Positions 7,637 to 27,346 of a stretch of 64,000 nucleotides of DNA are shown here, piece after piece (the first letter of the stretch is position 1; each line of letters starts with the position of its first letter). Where the stretch lies: contig NZ_CP021170.1 of the NCBI RefSeq assembly GCF_001421015.2, forward strand, positions 1-64,000, read 5' to 3'. The stretch is from Paenibacillus bovis (GTDB lineage: Bacteria; Bacillota; Bacilli; Paenibacillales; Paenibacillaceae). Both the position numbers and the translations under genes were made by a program. Under the pieces are notes generated by a model. The model did no database searches. It had not been told where the DNA came from and was given only the letters and a program-made list of their open reading frames with translations.

Positions 7637-7970
7637 ATGGAGCGATCGATAAAATATCCGCGAGCTGGATACGCACCGGTTCATAGTCTATATCATAAAC
7701 CACTAGGACTCGCGCGTGTGGATCACAACTATGTAAGATGCCGCGCAACCGCTGAATGCGTTTGTTTTTATAGTACGAAATGGTTACAGGCTGATGATCC
7801 TGCAGATGTTGATGAATAGCGTAGTTCAGTTCGTCCAGCTGATCGGTACCGAGAATCGGACGGGGAATGTCGTCTTGGGCTAAAATCCATTCCTGCAGCC
7901 GCTCCCGGTGTTCAGGTATAAATAAGGATGTCCATTTGCGGTTACCTCTATCATTGGGTAGCTTATTCAT
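7635..7970 (-). CDS. yolD: YolD-like protein, partner of the UvrX polymerase
   Basis: YolD-family proteins are small and encoded directly after Y-family polymerases of the UvrX type on Bacillus phages and plasmids. Here the start at 7970 follows GGAGG and overlaps the uvrX stop by 8 bp. The sequence fits the family: RGNRKWTSLFIPEHRERL near the N-terminus, then the YDIDYEPVRIQLADILSI end. Length 111 aa is typical. It should be co-transcribed with uvrX under SOS control. Confidence 0.8.
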   Translation of the reverse strand: MNKLPNDRGNRKWTSLFIPEHRERLQEWILAQDDIPRPILGTDQLDELNYAIHQHLQDHQPVTISYYKNKRIQRLRGILHSCDPHARVLVVYDIDYEPVRIQLADILSIAP

Positions 7971-9155
7971 AGTGTCCTCCAATTTTATGTGACTTGTTAA
8001 GGGCTATACCAGCATCGGTAAGCGAAATGGCCCGAAGAATAGCTGCAGATCCGTGCCGCTGCTGTATCGCGTCTGTTGTGCGGCTTAACCGGCGTAATTT
8101 CTCATGATATGCCGAATCAAAAAGATCCAGCTGCACTGCCGATTCTTCAACTAAATTACTTACTGAAATACTGATATGCCGAATCAGGCCATCATTGGAT
8201 GCATGAAGCAGCTGCTGCAGGACTTCCAAAAACGGTACAGACAGACAGCTTGCCGCGTATAAAGTGCGGCTTTTATGATAGCCAGGCATCGGCTCTTTGT
8301 TGCTATATCGGATCGAGAGCGAGACCGTAAAAGCAGCCAGCCGGTACCGGCGCAGCTTGGCCGTGATTTGGTCTGTCAGCTCATAGATCACGATTAGCGC
8401 ATCCAATTTATTGTAATCGCGCATAAGGGTAACACCGGTACTGAAGCCTTTACGGGCTTCAGCATAAGGATCAACAATTACCGGGCTCAGATCCACGCCC
8501 CATGCATGATAATATAGCTGCTCACCGATTACCCCGTAGCGGCTACGAAGCAAAGACAAGGGAGCTTTAGCCAGGTCGCCAAGCCGGTAAATGCCTAATC
8601 GATTCAAGTTCAGCTGCATACGGCGGCCAATTCCCCAAACGTCCTGTATCGGCAGCGGCCAGAGAACGGCCGGTATGTCTGCATAAGTAACTGCAGCCAG
8701 ACCGGTCTTTTTGGCGTAATTGTCCAGAATGACTTTAGCCAGAAATTTATTCGGGCCGATCCCGACGGCTAATAACAGCCCTAGCTCTTTGTAGACTGTT
8801 CTTTTAAGGCTCATAGCTACATCGTGTATAGACCCAAAAAGGCGTTCAGAATGTAAGGTTGTGAAAAACAATTCATCTATACTGTATGGCTGAATCGCTT
8901 CAGCTGGAACAAACCGGTGTACGATGTTAAGTATTTGCATGGAACGTTCTATGTATAATGCCATCCGTGCCGGTACAACGTAGATACGGGGATCATCCGG
9001 AATTTCATAGAGCCGGCTGCCGGTCTTGATCCCGTACCGGTCTTTAATAGCCGGACTAGCAGCCAGTACAACCGATCCGCGGCGGCTCAGGTCGCCAACT
9101 ACAGCAATCATATCTTTGAGAGGGTTTAGACCACGTTCTACAGCTTCCACGCTGG
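7963..9155 (-). CDS. uvrX: UvrX-type Y-family DNA polymerase, exon 2
   Basis: Encodes most of an error-prone translesion polymerase: SVEAVERGLNPL, VVGDLSRRGSVVLAASP, the second catalytic motif YSIDEL, GIGPNKFLAK, and a helix-hairpin-helix region VWGIGRRMQLNLNRLG. On its own the frame lacks the first catalytic Asp and the SFYA steric-gate motif, which lie in exon 1 at 11733-11799. Joining 67 nt of exon 1 to 1,193 nt here gives exactly 420 codons and recreates SFYASVEAVERGLNPL. The gene is therefore functional only after the group II intron splices. Confidence 0.88.
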
Positions 9156-11732
9156 ATAATGATAGGTAAGGGTTTGAAATCATCGCTGCCTTTTCCCCCA
9201 TTTCACACCGTGCATGCAATTTTCACCGCACACGGCGTTCCATCTTTTAGATTTACATATTTATAAGTTCCAGATTACTCATTCGGCGATACATGTTCAC
9301 CTTTTGGAGTCTGGATTTATCCAGATCCAATTCTTTAACGAGTTGTATAATTGTATGTTGTGCAGTAGCGTGTATCAGCCTATGAATATCCTTATGGATA
9401 ATTCTTAGGTTTCTAAAGCTATCGTCTCCTCCGAGATCCGTGGGCAAGTAATGATGACAGTGAACTAGATCTGCAGCCAAGAAAACACCAGATATTTCGC
9501 ATTTTCCTTTGACCATACTGTAGCGACCGATCCTGTTATCCGTATATTGCACGGTACGATTTGACAGAACTGATTTTAGCAGTTCTGCTATTTCCCATTC
9601 CACTGTTCTATTCAGTTTGGTGTATATATCTACCCTTCCTTCAACACTATATGGAGTTCTGGTTTGAGTGAAGCTGAAGTTGTTGACTGTCTTCACACCT
9701 GCCAAAGGAAAGAGGTATATAGTCGCCACCTTAAACGTCCTGAAGCTTTTTGAGTACAGATTGGAGTAGGATGGAGGTGCTTTATTGGGATACATATATC
9801 TACCTATTCTTTTCATACGATTATAGATGAACGTTCTCAGATCATAGGCAAGACGATTGAACTCTACGTTCACGTGAGTGGCATACCTAAAGTAATTGTG
9901 AAGACCTAACACAAGACTGTTGTAAAGCTGTACACGATGGGCTATAGGGTTTTTTTGAATATCTTGAATGTGTGTTTTAATTTTTGCTTTAAGAGCCGAT
10001 TTCTTAGCCTGACTCAGACCCGTGTTGGCCACATACGTGTTTCGCTTTTTGACAGCTTTGATGGTGAAGCCAAGGAAGTCGGATTTCTTTTTACGCAAGT
10101 TGACGATCCTTGATTTCTCAGATGAGATATCCAAACCTAGTCGAATTTTTAGATATTCCTTCACGGCATAGAACCACTTCTCAGCAGATTTATGGTCTCG
10201 GCAGAGGATCTTAAAGTCATCTGCATAACGCACGATATATCCTTCTTTCAAACCTGTCGTTTTGAGGGCTCTATGCTTATTGGAAGGCAGATAATTGTGC
10301 CTAGGCTTAAATAATTCCCATTGACCTGCTACCCATTGGTCTAAATCATTGAGCACAATATTAGAGAGCAAAGGGGAAAGTATCCCGCCTTGAGGAGTAC
10401 CTTTGGTAGGTACACCTTCTCCTTGTATCGGAGCTTTGAGCATCTTCTGAATGATGCTTAAAAATCTACGATCCCTGACGCCTAAGTTCCATAGCTGCTT
10501 AATTAAAGTCCTGTGATTGATATTATCGAAGAATCCTTTAATATCGATATCGACCACATAGTGCAGCTTCGACAGGTTAATTAATTTCTGTAATCTGGCA
10601 ATGGCATGGCGCGTGGATCGTAAAGGACGAAAGCCGTAGCTATGTTTAAAAAATTGAGCTTCAGCGATGGGTTCCAATATTTGCTTAAAGCATTGTTGGA
10701 TCAACCTGTCCATGATACAAGGTATTCCGAGCGGTCTTGTTTTCCCATTAGCTTTGGGGATGGTCACCCGTTTAACTAATTTGGGCTGATATCTTCTGAG
10801 TTTTTCTCTCACGAGATGAACGATTTCATCTTCTTTCAACGATTTAAGAAACTGTATAGTTTTTCCGTCAGTGCCTGGTGTTTTAGATCCTTTATTGGAT
10901 TTAATCATCCGGAAAGCTAATAAAATATTGGCTTTGGATATAACCAGGCTGTATAAGTCTTTGCGTACTATACCGTTTTTGGAAGATTCAAAAAGTTCAG
11001 TGAAACAATCTGTCATGCCGTAATAGTCCCAGTACCGAAGAGCCTGCATTGTAGCACCTCCATGAGGTGTGCCCACATTCTTACCAGATCGATGCAGTTC
11101 ATATTCTGAAAAATAAATATTGAATCCGAAAGACTCAGGACTGTTCCTCCAATCCCATTACAGGATCTTCATCAGTCATGTCCTTACTCTCACAAGGGTA
11201 AATGAATTTCGGCGGTTAAGCCTTATATCAACCACTTAGGTTAGCAGACCCGTATAGCAGCGTCCCTTGCTTTCCTTGTTCCTATCACTTTAGCTATCCT
11301 TTTCACCCTTAGGTGTCTCCTCTGAGCCTGTGGGAGTATACCGCCGTTGTCCGGTATAACGTCGTTCCTATCTACGATTCGTACTAAACGTCACCCACAC
11401 CAGCAGAGCTGGTACATAAGTTTCCTCATGCTATGCCTTCTAGACCCGTACATTCGGAGATTCGTCAGATCGTTAAGATCATTCTCACCATAGGTGATTT
11501 TTCAGCCGTCCGGCATATCATGAGGCATATCTAGAATATAGACTTAGCCCAACTTCTGCCGACTTCACCTAGCTTCACACCCTGTTTACTGCTTCACAGC
11601 GCATGTAGGAGTATTAACGGAACTGTTTCAGAGAAACATGGCTCTCATCATTCCAGTTCTCAAGTGATAAGTTAGACTCAAGATAGAGTCCCCTCATTTC
11701 CTGCTAGGCAGTTGTAGAGGAACAAGTCGCAC
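9156..11732 (-). mobile_element. Group II intron inserted in uvrX (2,577 bp)
   Basis: The intron begins GTGCGAC, matching the GUGYG 5' consensus, and ends ...CATTAT before exon 2. A domain V-like hairpin (GCCGTG...GAAA...CACGGT) lies at about 9203-9240, and domain VI follows. About 650 nt of structured RNA (domains I-IV) precede the encoded reverse transcriptase. The insertion splits the Ala codon of SFYASVE in uvrX, and excision restores the frame exactly. Boundaries were set by the consensus ends and by frame restoration. Confidence 0.88.
9253..11049 (-). CDS. ltrA: Group II intron reverse transcriptase/maturase with HNH domain
   Basis: Intron-encoded protein of 598 aa, starting at ATG 11049 behind GGAGGTG. 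Order: N-terminal RT-0 region, RT core with the catalytic YADD at about residue 274 (GYIVRYADDFKILCR), maturase/thumb region, then an HNH-type endonuclease near residues 530-575 (C...VHCHHYLP...N...HKDIH). All key motifs are present, so mobility and splicing help are plausible. The stop lies just before domain V, typical of an ORF looping out of domain IV. Confidence 0.92.
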   Translation of the reverse strand: MQALRYWDYYGMTDCFTELFESSKNGIVRKDLYSLVISKANILLAFRMIKSNKGSKTPGTDGKTIQFLKSLKEDEIVHLVREKLRRYQPKLVKRVTIPKANGKTRPLGIPCIMDRLIQQCFKQILEPIAEAQFFKHSYGFRPLRSTRHAIARLQKLINLSKLHYVVDIDIKGFFDNINHRTLIKQLWNLGVRDRRFLSIIQKMLKAPIQGEGVPTKGTPQGGILSPLLSNIVLNDLDQWVAGQWELFKPRHNYLPSNKHRALKTTGLKEGYIVRYADDFKILCRDHKSAEKWFYAVKEYLKIRLGLDISSEKSRIVNLRKKKSDFLGFTIKAVKKRNTYVANTGLSQAKKSALKAKIKTHIQDIQKNPIAHRVQLYNSLVLGLHNYFRYATHVNVEFNRLAYDLRTFIYNRMKRIGRYMYPNKAPPSYSNLYSKSFRTFKVATIYLFPLAGVKTVNNFSFTQTRTPYSVEGRVDIYTKLNRTVEWEIAELLKSVLSNRTVQYTDNRIGRYSMVKGKCEISGVFLAADLVHCHHYLPTDLGGDDSFRNLRIIHKDIHRLIHATAQHTIIQLVKELDLDKSRLQKVNMYRRMSNLELINM

Positions 11733-24617: not shown

Positions 24618-24653
24618 AAGAAAAAGGCGCAGATCACACTGCGCCTTTTTCTT
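24618..24653. terminator. Bidirectional terminator
   Basis: AAGAAAAAGGCGCA pairs with TGCGCCTTTTTCTT. It lies between convergent genes. Confidence 0.85.
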
Positions 24654-25449
24654 ATTTCTTCTTTTTTTGCTCTTTTAGCTGCTGCCAGACTTGTTCTGCA
24701 GACTGAGTAAGCAGATAACCATCGATCCACCGCAGTTCCGAAGAGAATCGAAATTCCTGAGCGCTTAAATGGGTCTTCTGAAACTGCCGCCAGAGAGAGG
24801 GACGCATATTCGACACAGCCTGCTGCCGCATCTCTTTATTCGTGCATGACGCAAAGCTTGGCTCTTGCAAAAGAAATGCAGTGAATTTTTCAAGGATGCC
24901 GCTGCGGATCTGCTCGATCGTTTCTGAAATGAGATCGTCATCGATCGGTTCACCCAGCAGCTCCTCCGCAACTTTACGAGCACGTCCGGTAGTATCCAGC
25001 TGCTGGGCGACATATTGCAGTGCCTCGCTATATACGGTCATGGCAAGGGTCAGATGGGGAGAGAACAAATAGACGGTGATCTGGACCGGCTGCTGGTTAC
25101 CTTCCACATCGAGACTTTGGTTCAGCGCTTCGATACGCTGTTCAAAAAGAGGGAGCTGCTCGGAAGAGAGGAGCAGCATCAGGTCCTGGATCTCCTCTTC
25201 ACTGCTATCGATTATCGCACCTTCAGCCAGAGCATCCGATGCCAAAATACACTCTATGAATATAGGCTGCTTCTGAGCGGCTGCCAGCTGCACCATTTTG
25301 GTTAGATTCGGCTGCGTGGGTTTGAGAGTAGCATCTGGAACAAAGTCCGGGTTCTCTGTGTCCAGATCCTCAGGCCGGAAATAAATAACATGATGCAAAG
25401 CGGCCAATTCCTCCAGCGTGTGTATGATGTTGTGGGTTGTCAATTTCAT
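24652..25449 (-). CDS. Hypothetical protein, 265 aa
   Basis: ATG 25449 (MKLTTHNIIHTLEEL) follows GAAGGAGGGT; the frame extends to 25506 without a better site. Acidic, helical, with a Lys-rich C-terminus (KEQKKKK). No family recognised. It is divergent from the spo0A homologue with about 200 bp between them. Confidence 0.65.
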   Translation of the reverse strand: MKLTTHNIIHTLEELAALHHVIYFRPEDLDTENPDFVPDATLKPTQPNLTKMVQLAAAQKQPIFIECILASDALAEGAIIDSSEEEIQDLMLLLSSEQLPLFEQRIEALNQSLDVEGNQQPVQITVYLFSPHLTLAMTVYSEALQYVAQQLDTTGRARKVAEELLGEPIDDDLISETIEQIRSGILEKFTAFLLQEPSFASCTNKEMRQQAVSNMRPSLWRQFQKTHLSAQEFRFSSELRWIDGYLLTQSAEQVWQQLKEQKKKK

Positions 25450-25655
25450 TGAAAGGTACCCTCCTTCTTTAACTGCCACTACAAATAAATCTCCCATATA
25501 TTTCATTTTCGTTCCCTAAGTAGGTCTTTAGGTGTAGAATAAAGAAGAATATCATAATTTTCTGATTATATTTTACTACTTTATTATCATGATGCATAGA
25601 AAATATTGGTAAATAACACAGAGCAACTTCATTGAAGGGAGAACATAGAACAAAA

Positions 25656-26459
25656 ATGATACGCATTATGATGGCGGATGATAATCGGGATTTTGTAGAG
25701 ATGCTGTCTGACTATATTAATGGGCAGCCCGATATGGAGATCATCGGGATCGGGGCAAACGGGGAAGATATTCTGCAAAAACTGGCGTTTGAAGCGGAAG
25801 ATCCGCCGGACGTGCTTTTGCTGGACGTAATTATGCCGCATCTGGACGGCCTTGGCGTTCTGGAGCGCTTGCCGGAGCTGGATCTGCAGCCGGTCCCTCA
25901 GATTATCATGCTGACAGCGTTTGGCCAGGAACATATTACCCAGCGAGCGGTGGAGCTGGGTGCAGCTTACTACATGCTGAAACCGTTTGAACTCAACGTG
26001 CTGGGTAGCCGGATCCGTCAGCTGGTTGGGAATCAAAAAGCAGTAGAAACAGCGGAAAGAGCTGCAGCCAAAAAAGCGGCAGCCGGGAAAAAAAGAAAAC
26101 CCCCGGTCAATATCGATGCAGAGATTACTTCATTGCTGAATGAAATAGGGGTACCTCCTCATCTGAAAGGCTTTCATTATCTGCGGGATGCCATCCATCT
26201 GGTATATCATAATATTGAAATGCTTGGTGCCATCACGAAACTACTGTATCCGCAGATCGCTGAAAAGTACCATAGCACACCCAGCCGAATTGAGCGAGGT
26301 ATTCGTCATTCTATTGAAGTGTCCTGGACGCGAGGAAAACGCGAGGCCATCATTGACCTTTTTGGATACGAGCGAAAATTGAAAAAAACTAAGCCAACCA
26401 ACAGCGAGTTTATTGCCGTGGTAGCCGATCAATTACGCGTTCAGCATGGTAAAATATGA
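25656..26459 (+). CDS. spo0A: Spo0A-family response regulator on an accessory element
   Basis: Full-length (267 aa), like chromosomal Spo0A, the master regulator of sporulation. The receiver domain keeps ADDN (Asp8-Asp9), phospho-acceptor Asp57 in [13 protein letters not shown], Thr87 and Lys109. The C-terminal sigma-contacting and DNA-binding domain keeps [29 protein letters not shown] and [16 protein letters not shown]. The linker is unusually Ala/Lys-rich ([13 protein letters not shown]). All catalytic residues are intact, so it could accept phosphate from host phosphorelay proteins. An HEPN-like gene follows 30 bp later. Confidence 0.92.
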
Positions 26460-26489: not shown

Positions 26490-27011
26490 ATGATCAGAAC
26501 AACATTGGATGTGAAATTACAAGAGTCTAAACATCATTATGAGCACATGATTCAATATGTAAACGAAAAAGATCTAACAAAATTAAAGTATGAAATCAGC
26601 GCATTTATAAATGCGGCAAGAAGTATTCTGCAATATGCACATAAAACCGCAAAGCAGCAAGACAAAGAAAATGTATATAAGGAGCTGGTTAGTGCTAACC
26701 CCACTTTGAAATTTTTTAAAGATTTACGAGATGAGAATATACACACCAAATTAGTAGAGGTTACCGCTCATGCAAATGCAGAGATAACCATGGGCTTTAT
26801 CATAAGACAAGAAAATACAACCGATGAAGAAATAGAAGGAATTAAAGCAGAACAAGCCAATCAAACTCCACTCCAAACCAGAACCATAGAACAATACTTT
26901 TTTGATGAGAAGCCTGAGGAGGAAGTACTTCCTTTATGTGAAAAATATCTTGTGGAATTAGAAAAATTCACCGCAGAGGCGAAGGTCAAAGGAATCGCAC
27001 CTGTCATATAA
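26490..27011 (+). CDS. HEPN-like helical protein, 173 aa
   Basis: ATG 26490 follows AGGAGGG. The region YEISAFINAARSIL...FFKDLRDENIH (residues 32-90) fits HEPN-like four-helix proteins, with an R-x4-H motif. HEPN proteins include RNases and antitoxin partners. The composition is AT- and Lys-rich, unlike the preceding gene. It is probably co-transcribed with spo0A. No nucleotidyltransferase partner is visible. Confidence 0.55.
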   Translation: MIRTTLDVKLQESKHHYEHMIQYVNEKDLTKLKYEISAFINAARSILQYAHKTAKQQDKENVYKELVSANPTLKFFKDLRDENIHTKLVEVTAHANAEITMGFIIRQENTTDEEIEGIKAEQANQTPLQTRTIEQYFFDEKPEEEVLPLCEKYLVELEKFTAEAKVKGIAPVI

Positions 27012-27082: not shown

Positions 27083-27346
27083 TCAGTAATCCATAAAGTA
27101 AGCCGATCCGGAAGACGGCGGCGGGCTTTTCATAAACGGATCTTTATTCATTCTTACACTCTCCAGCGAATCGGGATCATCCCAAAGGATATGACCAGCT
27201 TCCTGAAGCGATTCTAAGCGCTTCATCAGTTCCGGCTGGCTCAACCCTGTCCGAGCTTTGAGAAGCGACCAGGGCGGCATGCTCCGGTGCTTGGTGTAGT
27301 GATTAAACAGGATCCGGTATAACTTTTGCTCTGCGTCATTAATCAT
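27083..27346 (-). CDS. Small winged-helix protein, 87 aa
   Basis: ATG 27346. Residues 5-60 (LYRILFNHYTKHRSMPPWSLLKARTGLSQPELMKRLESLQEAGHI) have the layout of the LexA N-terminal winged helix, but no protease domain follows. The tail is Pro/Ser-rich. A regulator role is inferred. Confidence 0.6.
   Translation of the reverse strand: MINDAEQKLYRILFNHYTKHRSMPPWSLLKARTGLSQPELMKRLESLQEAGHILWDDPDSLESVRMNKDPFMKSPPPSSGSAYFMDY

Follow-up and report, generated by a model that had tools for sequence, protein, structure and literature searches.

A full-length Spo0A-family response regulator on a plasmid-type replicon of an apparently asporogenous host genus

The Spo0A of the second replicon

The 162,922-bp second replicon of Paenibacillus bovis encodes an intact, two-domain Spo0A-family response regulator in addition to the two Spo0As of the chromosome, and the host genus, judged by genome content, looks asporogenous. 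Spo0A is usually treated as a single-copy, chromosomal mark of spore formers. The reading we put forward, with confidence somewhat short of even, is that the plasmid protein is an accessory, non-autoregulated Spo0A that would tap the host phosphorelay and act on what remains of the Spo0A regulon outside sporulation. The window, meaning the whole stretch of DNA analyzed, comprises bases 1-64000 of this replicon (C2).

The gene occupies 25656..26459 on the forward strand, with its ATG at 25656 and its stop codon at 26459, and encodes 267 residues; the ORF and its coding signal are intact, free of any lesion. The product contains a receiver domain (residues 4-120, forward-strand bases 25665..26015; Pfam Response_reg, 73.8 bits against a cut-off of 30.2) and a Spo0A_C DNA-binding domain (residues 157-260, 26124..26435, same strand; 133.2 bits against a cut-off of 25). 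By sequence, it matches the solved Spo0A receiver and DNA-binding domains (1fc3, 1lq1, 9phz, 1dz3). Asp8, Asp9, Asp57, Thr87 and Lys109 (DDDTK) are retained, with the codon of the phospho-acceptor Asp57 at forward-strand positions 25824-25826 within the receiver domain, and Arg211, Glu213, Arg214, Arg217 and His218 (RERRH) of the helix-turn-helix are unchanged; both sets are identical in the canonical Spo0As with which they were aligned. The roles of these residues in phosphorylation and DNA contact are those known from B. subtilis. The gene is a full-length Spo0A-family response regulator, as the initial annotation had proposed from the intact frame and the conserved phosphorylation and DNA-binding residues. 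That annotation also singled out the linker as Ala/Lys-rich and atypical. The composition is real (about residues 125-150, forward-strand bases 26028..26105), but the divergence alone means little because linkers vary among all the Spo0As aligned. One departure lies in a conserved motif: the Asp that follows KPF, invariant in 31 canonical Spo0As, is Glu in the plasmid copy. These 31 canonical rows comprise 16 from the host genus and the 15 family rows remaining in the alignment, which excluded L001 and L002 as duplicates and another 14 family loci as near-identical.

The replicon and the neighbors of the gene

The host genome (G000, 5,517,199 bp in total) comprises two contigs, of which C2 is the second. 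C2 is most likely circular because an ORF reads across the joined contig ends, its product resembling by eye the protein of 27083-27346; both proteins are small, with no assigned function. The gene content of C2 includes TraG-type P-loop, FtsK-type and T2SSE-type ATPases, an M23 peptidase, an ArdC-type antirestriction gene, a Tn3-type transposase and arsenic and metal transport genes, together with a weak actin-like domain match (24 bits, under the cut-off of 27.8). Three Paenibacillus plasmid records encode proteins 53-56% identical to the TraG-type ATPase; this ATPase and the FtsK-type one also weakly match a terminase-large-subunit family, phrog_2666 (1.3e-11 and 2.6e-9). Among the 50 of 173 called C2 ORFs that were scanned against Pfam, none was a relaxase. 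C2 is described as a plasmid-type second replicon, apart from the chromosome, which bears out the earlier placement of this spo0A on an accessory element; 'conjugative-type' denotes a likeness, seen in its T4SS-type ATPases, rather than a proven class. Elsewhere in the window, at 7963-11076, a UmuC-type (IMS) polymerase gene adjoins one for a reverse transcriptase that weakly matches a group II intron maturase.

The plasmid gene has no recN (spoIVB) linkage, and its flanking genes are orphans. Upstream, beyond an intergenic region (25507..25655, read on the forward strand) that contains no exact 0A box, lies a divergent gene of 284 aa on the reverse strand (24652..25506) with no Pfam, PHROG or plasmid match. 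Downstream, a gene of 173 aa on the forward strand (26490..27011) starts 30 bp after spo0A and is a possible operon partner. Its product has no Pfam or PHROG match, displays by eye an R-x4-H motif as in HEPN proteins, and has one plasmid relative, of 31% identity, in Paenibacillus peoriae; no spo0A is annotated in the 18.5-kb neighborhood of that relative. Among 16 genomes of the genus, each of these two flanking genes was found only in the host.

Spo0A copies in the genus and family

The host genome encodes three Spo0A_C proteins, two of them chromosomal, so that the extra intact Spo0A noted in the initial annotation is a third copy rather than a second. The canonical gene (C1:3997504-3997815) adjoins recN, which was identified by eye; an argR match lies next to recN. 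The second chromosomal copy, here called Spo0A2 (L005:8026-8937, reverse strand; G000:C1:3628052-3628363), stands in the order lexA, a 127 aa gene, spo0A2 and glnA (flanks named by eye), and occupies the same site in three species (G000, G003 and G015). A fourth genome, G006, carries an extra Spo0A at a different location, which brings the accessory proteins to five: the plasmid copy, three Spo0A2 and the G006 extra copy.

Spo0A_C matches were present in 16/16 genus genomes, with more than one in these four. A family-wide search with the plasmid protein as query (E <= 1e-30, at most 8 candidates per genome scored) gave a match in all 295 genomes and more than one in the same four only. The expectation that Spo0A is single-copy is thus borne out in 291 of the 295 family genomes, and the four exceptions all belong to the host genus. 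Extra copies occur in 4/16 genus genomes versus 0/279 other family genomes (Fisher p 5.9e-6, a value that ignores shared descent), and three of the four extra-copy genomes share one syntenic copy. Among the other loci collected, a Lachnospiraceae MAG contains a tandem pair of Spo0A-like genes (L063:8711-10927), with no spoIVB match in its 12.9-kb locus.

Sporulation genes of the host genus

Four core sporulation markers were sought in the genus. SpoIVB and alpha/beta SASP were each found in 0/16 genomes, with positive B. subtilis controls; SpoIVA was found in 0/16 versus 33/33 others of the family and order, and SpoIIGA in 0/16 versus 15/15 sampled outside the genus. Because none of the four was found in the 16 genomes, the genus looks asporogenous. 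In the family, spoIVB lies beside spo0A in 27 of 29 loci, the exceptions being a short locus (L056) and one with no match (L032); no spoIVB was found in the flanking sequence available for the 16 canonical genes of the host genus. Spo0A itself is retained in all 16 genomes, and a SPOB_a protein is present in 16/16, although SPOB_a is not specific and was also positive in 5/14 control genomes.

Descent of the plasmid copy

The plasmid Spo0A is 54-59% identical to each of eight Spo0As compared, including 55% to the host canonical copy and 55-56% to Spo0A2, and the highest family identity is 62% among the matches listed. Recent capture of the host's own spo0A was considered and is rejected on the 55% identity to each chromosomal copy and the 54-59% range across all eight. 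At 27 columns uniform in the 31 canonical proteins, the plasmid copy stands apart, matching neither these nor the other extra copies; 26 of the differences are substitutions and one is an inserted residue.

Three residues, L113, P168 and E239, are common to all five accessory Spo0As and absent in the 31 canonical proteins; G117 is also common to the plasmid protein and Spo0A2. Trees pair the plasmid protein with Spo0A2 with support of 98/88 (36 rows) and 97/84 (33 rows), and in the 33-row tree the five accessory proteins fall on one side of a branch supported at 91/80. The 36-row tree omitted 16 further rows (L060, L063 twice, L064-L070, L072-L074, L035, L044 and L056), and the 33-row tree additionally omitted L061, L062 and L071. 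In both trees the plasmid protein sits on a long branch (1.67 and 2.34 changes per column) and draws a long-branch warning. Three alternative placements of it are not rejected by the AU test: alongside the six canonical copies of the type found in the host (p 0.114), alongside the other ten genus copies (p 0.241), and alongside the family rows combined with the first six (p 0.173). The phylogeny with the host Spo0A that had been suggested at the outset thus joins the plasmid copy to Spo0A2 while leaving a grouping with the host canonical protein compatible with the AU test; a kinship with Spo0A2 is likely on these alignments, though not proven.

The chromosomal Spo0A2 is under purifying selection: dN/dS was 0.041, 0.078 and 0.049 in three pairs, against 0.024-0.068 in six canonical pairs, the ratios being rough as dS exceeds 1 in several. 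At seven donor-specificity positions, taken from table 1 of Davidson et al. (PMC6136694) and mapped here onto the alignment, the plasmid protein reads NDFMDYE, the host canonical copy NEFMEYD, Spo0A2 NEFMDYD and B. subtilis NELLEYD. Four of the seven are identical between the plasmid and host canonical proteins, and the other three are Glu/Asp swaps. The canonical spo0A of ten of the 16 genus genomes (L011-L020) forms a second class, whose specificity set is NDFMEHD and whose genes have a single exact 0A box in place of two. Rapid change of Spo0A may have followed the loss of sporulation.

0A boxes and autoregulation

An exact TGTCGAA lies within 420 bp upstream of the ADDNR motif of the canonical gene in 16/16 genus genomes and 29/29 family loci. 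One of the 29 family upstreams is only 318 bp long, and these loci are the best matches to the plasmid protein, many near-identical, rather than a random sample; shuffled upstreams carry a box in 91 of 2000 cases. Because the genus canonical promoters keep their boxes in 16/16, the Spo0A-box circuit survives without sporulation. In the same span, exact boxes precede 0/5 accessory genes, the plasmid copy among them. A box with one mismatch occurs once before the plasmid gene, at -141, and once before the extra gene of G006; the three Spo0A2 genes have none. The plasmid spo0A is thus predicted to lie outside Spo0A autoregulation.

The initial annotation had also raised a link between Spo0A and the plasmid's own genes, to be sought as 0A boxes, and the box search lends it no support. 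C2 contains 21 TGTCGAA sites, a number at the chance level, since 20 simulated sequences averaged 19.45 (range 14-25). Four of the 21 fall outside called genes, on a replicon that is about 19% non-coding by the ORF caller used here. A single TTCGACA-N14..24-TGTCGAA box pair is present in the host genome, at the canonical spo0A promoter, and C2 has none; pair counts alone prove nothing, as a reversed control pair occurs five times in the genome.

Proposed role and alternative readings

The proposed sequence of events starts with Asp57 of the plasmid Spo0A, which would be phosphorylated by the host's own phosphorelay. The phosphorylated protein would then dimerize and bind 0A boxes of the host chromosome, that of the canonical spo0A promoter included, and the surviving non-sporulation regulon (stationary phase, surface or biofilm, stress) would be altered in plasmid-bearing cells. 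Counted in favor of this accessory-regulator role are the intact domains, the DDDTK and RERRH residues, the specificity set, the SPOB_a protein in every genus genome, the four sporulation markers found in none of them, the 0A boxes kept at the genus canonical promoters, the purifying selection on Spo0A2 and the plasmid context. Counted against it are the long branch, which could also mean relaxed constraint, the single known copy of the plasmid gene, the Asp-to-Glu change after KPF, the lack of a 0A-box excess on C2, the poor specificity of SPOB_a, the weak terminase matches of the C2 ATPases and the lack of a relaxase among the 50 of 173 ORFs scanned.

The same intact DNA contacts would also suit a competitor, a dominant-negative Spo0A that accepts phosphate and occupies 0A boxes yet is a poor activator of sigma-A promoters, lowering the output of the host Spo0A. 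Positions 231, 233, 239 and 240, which presumably belong to or adjoin the sigma-A activation surface, read A, I, E and R in the plasmid protein and S, S, T and I in the host canonical copy. Position 231 also differs in the ten other genus canonical copies (N) and in Spo0A2 (H), and we regard such interference as unlikely. Control of the plasmid's own genes (transfer, partition, neighbors) according to host state seems a little less probable again. Some boxes do stand before genes, for example at 133145 ahead of a tyrosine recombinase and at 154239 before a gene adjoining a histidine kinase; against this stand the chance-level count, the few intergenic sites, the missing box pair and DNA-contact residues that are unchanged from those of the canonical protein.

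The long branch, the departures at the 27 canonical-uniform columns and the apparently asporogenous host would all fit an evolutionary passenger, a chromosome-derived gene drifting with little or no function. We consider this improbable, slightly more so than control of plasmid genes, as the ORF, key residues and coding signal are all intact, and a pseudogene at 54-59% identity would be unlikely to lack lesions altogether. Least probable is the other consequence first envisaged for the gene, an effect that alters or prevents the host's commitment to sporulation. The extra Spo0A is intact, and a transferable plasmid could bring it into sporulating relatives, but with four core markers in 0/16 genus genomes, two of them universal in the samples taken outside the genus, the claim is left unsupported, and a sporulation switch is rejected for this host.

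The accessory-regulator role can be extended to its evolutionary origin, though only as a tentative and rather doubtful proposal: the loss of sporulation would have freed Spo0A to multiply and mobilize, and a member of the accessory clade on a conjugative-type plasmid would reset the former developmental regulon, via the host phosphorelay, for the plasmid's benefit.

Comparison with known Spo0As and other mobile copies

The plasmid protein shares its receiver, Spo0A_C domain and key residues with the canonical chromosomal Spo0A of B. subtilis and the Paenibacillaceae, which is recN/spoIVB-linked. It differs in being plasmid-borne, away from recN and without an exact 0A box upstream, and in carrying E239, L113 and P168. 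With Spo0A2 it has in common E239, L113, P168, G117 and the absence of 0A boxes; unlike it, Spo0A2 is chromosomal, sits at the same site in three species and is only 55-56% identical to the plasmid copy. Clostridium thermocellum likewise has a second Spo0A homologue (Cthe_3087 / Clo1313_0637) beside the one needed for sporulation, and mutations in it in evolved strains have been read as a hint of a role in stress response (PMC3804516, PMC4890492). In contrast to the present case, that host sporulates, and the passages describing its homologue mention no plasmid. Among Spo0A-positive non-spore-formers, Exiguobacterium, Macrococcus and Bacillus selenitireducens lack spoIIGA, spoIVA, spoIVB and SASP genes (PMC3533761, table 5); Spo0A is kept there as in the host genus, and the account accompanying the table refers to neither multiple nor plasmid-borne Spo0As.

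On mobile elements, 29 Spo0A homologues from phages of the human-gut virome are described as aligning to the effector domain only, without a receiver (Schwartz et al. 2023, PMC10294663). These too place a Spo0A DNA-binding domain on a mobile element, and the plasmid copy differs by having the receiver. A phage protein family of 278 positions and no assigned function, phrog_37855, aligns with residues 2-264 of the plasmid Spo0A at 9.5e-88, and because it spans these residues, full-length Spo0A-like proteins do exist in the phage family library.

In a plasmid collection, 7 of 72,556 records matched at least 80% of the plasmid Spo0A length. Four of these are Bacillota records, and three of the four (H1, H2 and H3) were set aside, since they have spoIVB beside spo0A (H1 also recN and argR) and are likely chromosome pieces labelled as plasmids. 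The fourth, H4, is 28.8% identical, with no spoIVB match within 6 kb, and three Vibrio plasmid records match at 28% over residues 1-215. The 'plasmid' records NZ_CP142397.1 and NZ_OY725742.1 resemble chromosome pieces, with spoIVB-spo0A in both and recN and argR in the first. Of 50,697 phage records, 10 matched at least 80% of the length; among four of them examined, three have spoIVB beside spo0A and are probably bacterial DNA, and H67 does not. Scans seeded with exact short peptides of the plasmid Spo0A, which reach close relatives only and may leave out records near the source genome, gave no relative in viral contigs and, in genome contigs, 19 loci, none above 40% identity. A plasmid-borne Spo0A was not recognized in the passages of the open-licence literature searched, and the portions of PMC10017872 and PMC5261816 that came up do not have extra Spo0As as their subject.

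Implications

If the evolutionary proposal above is true, the plasmid Spo0A would be a full-length, signal-responsive equivalent of the phage Spo0As that lack a receiver. A whole phosphate-sensing Spo0A can be carried by a mobile element, beyond the DNA-binding half known from phages of the gut. The association of sporulation loss with extra Spo0As (four genomes within the genus, none in the rest of the family, in a comparison that ignores shared descent) is testable across other asporogenous lineages, and a genus that keeps and multiplies Spo0A without the core sporulation genes offers a natural setting for the non-spore role of this regulator.
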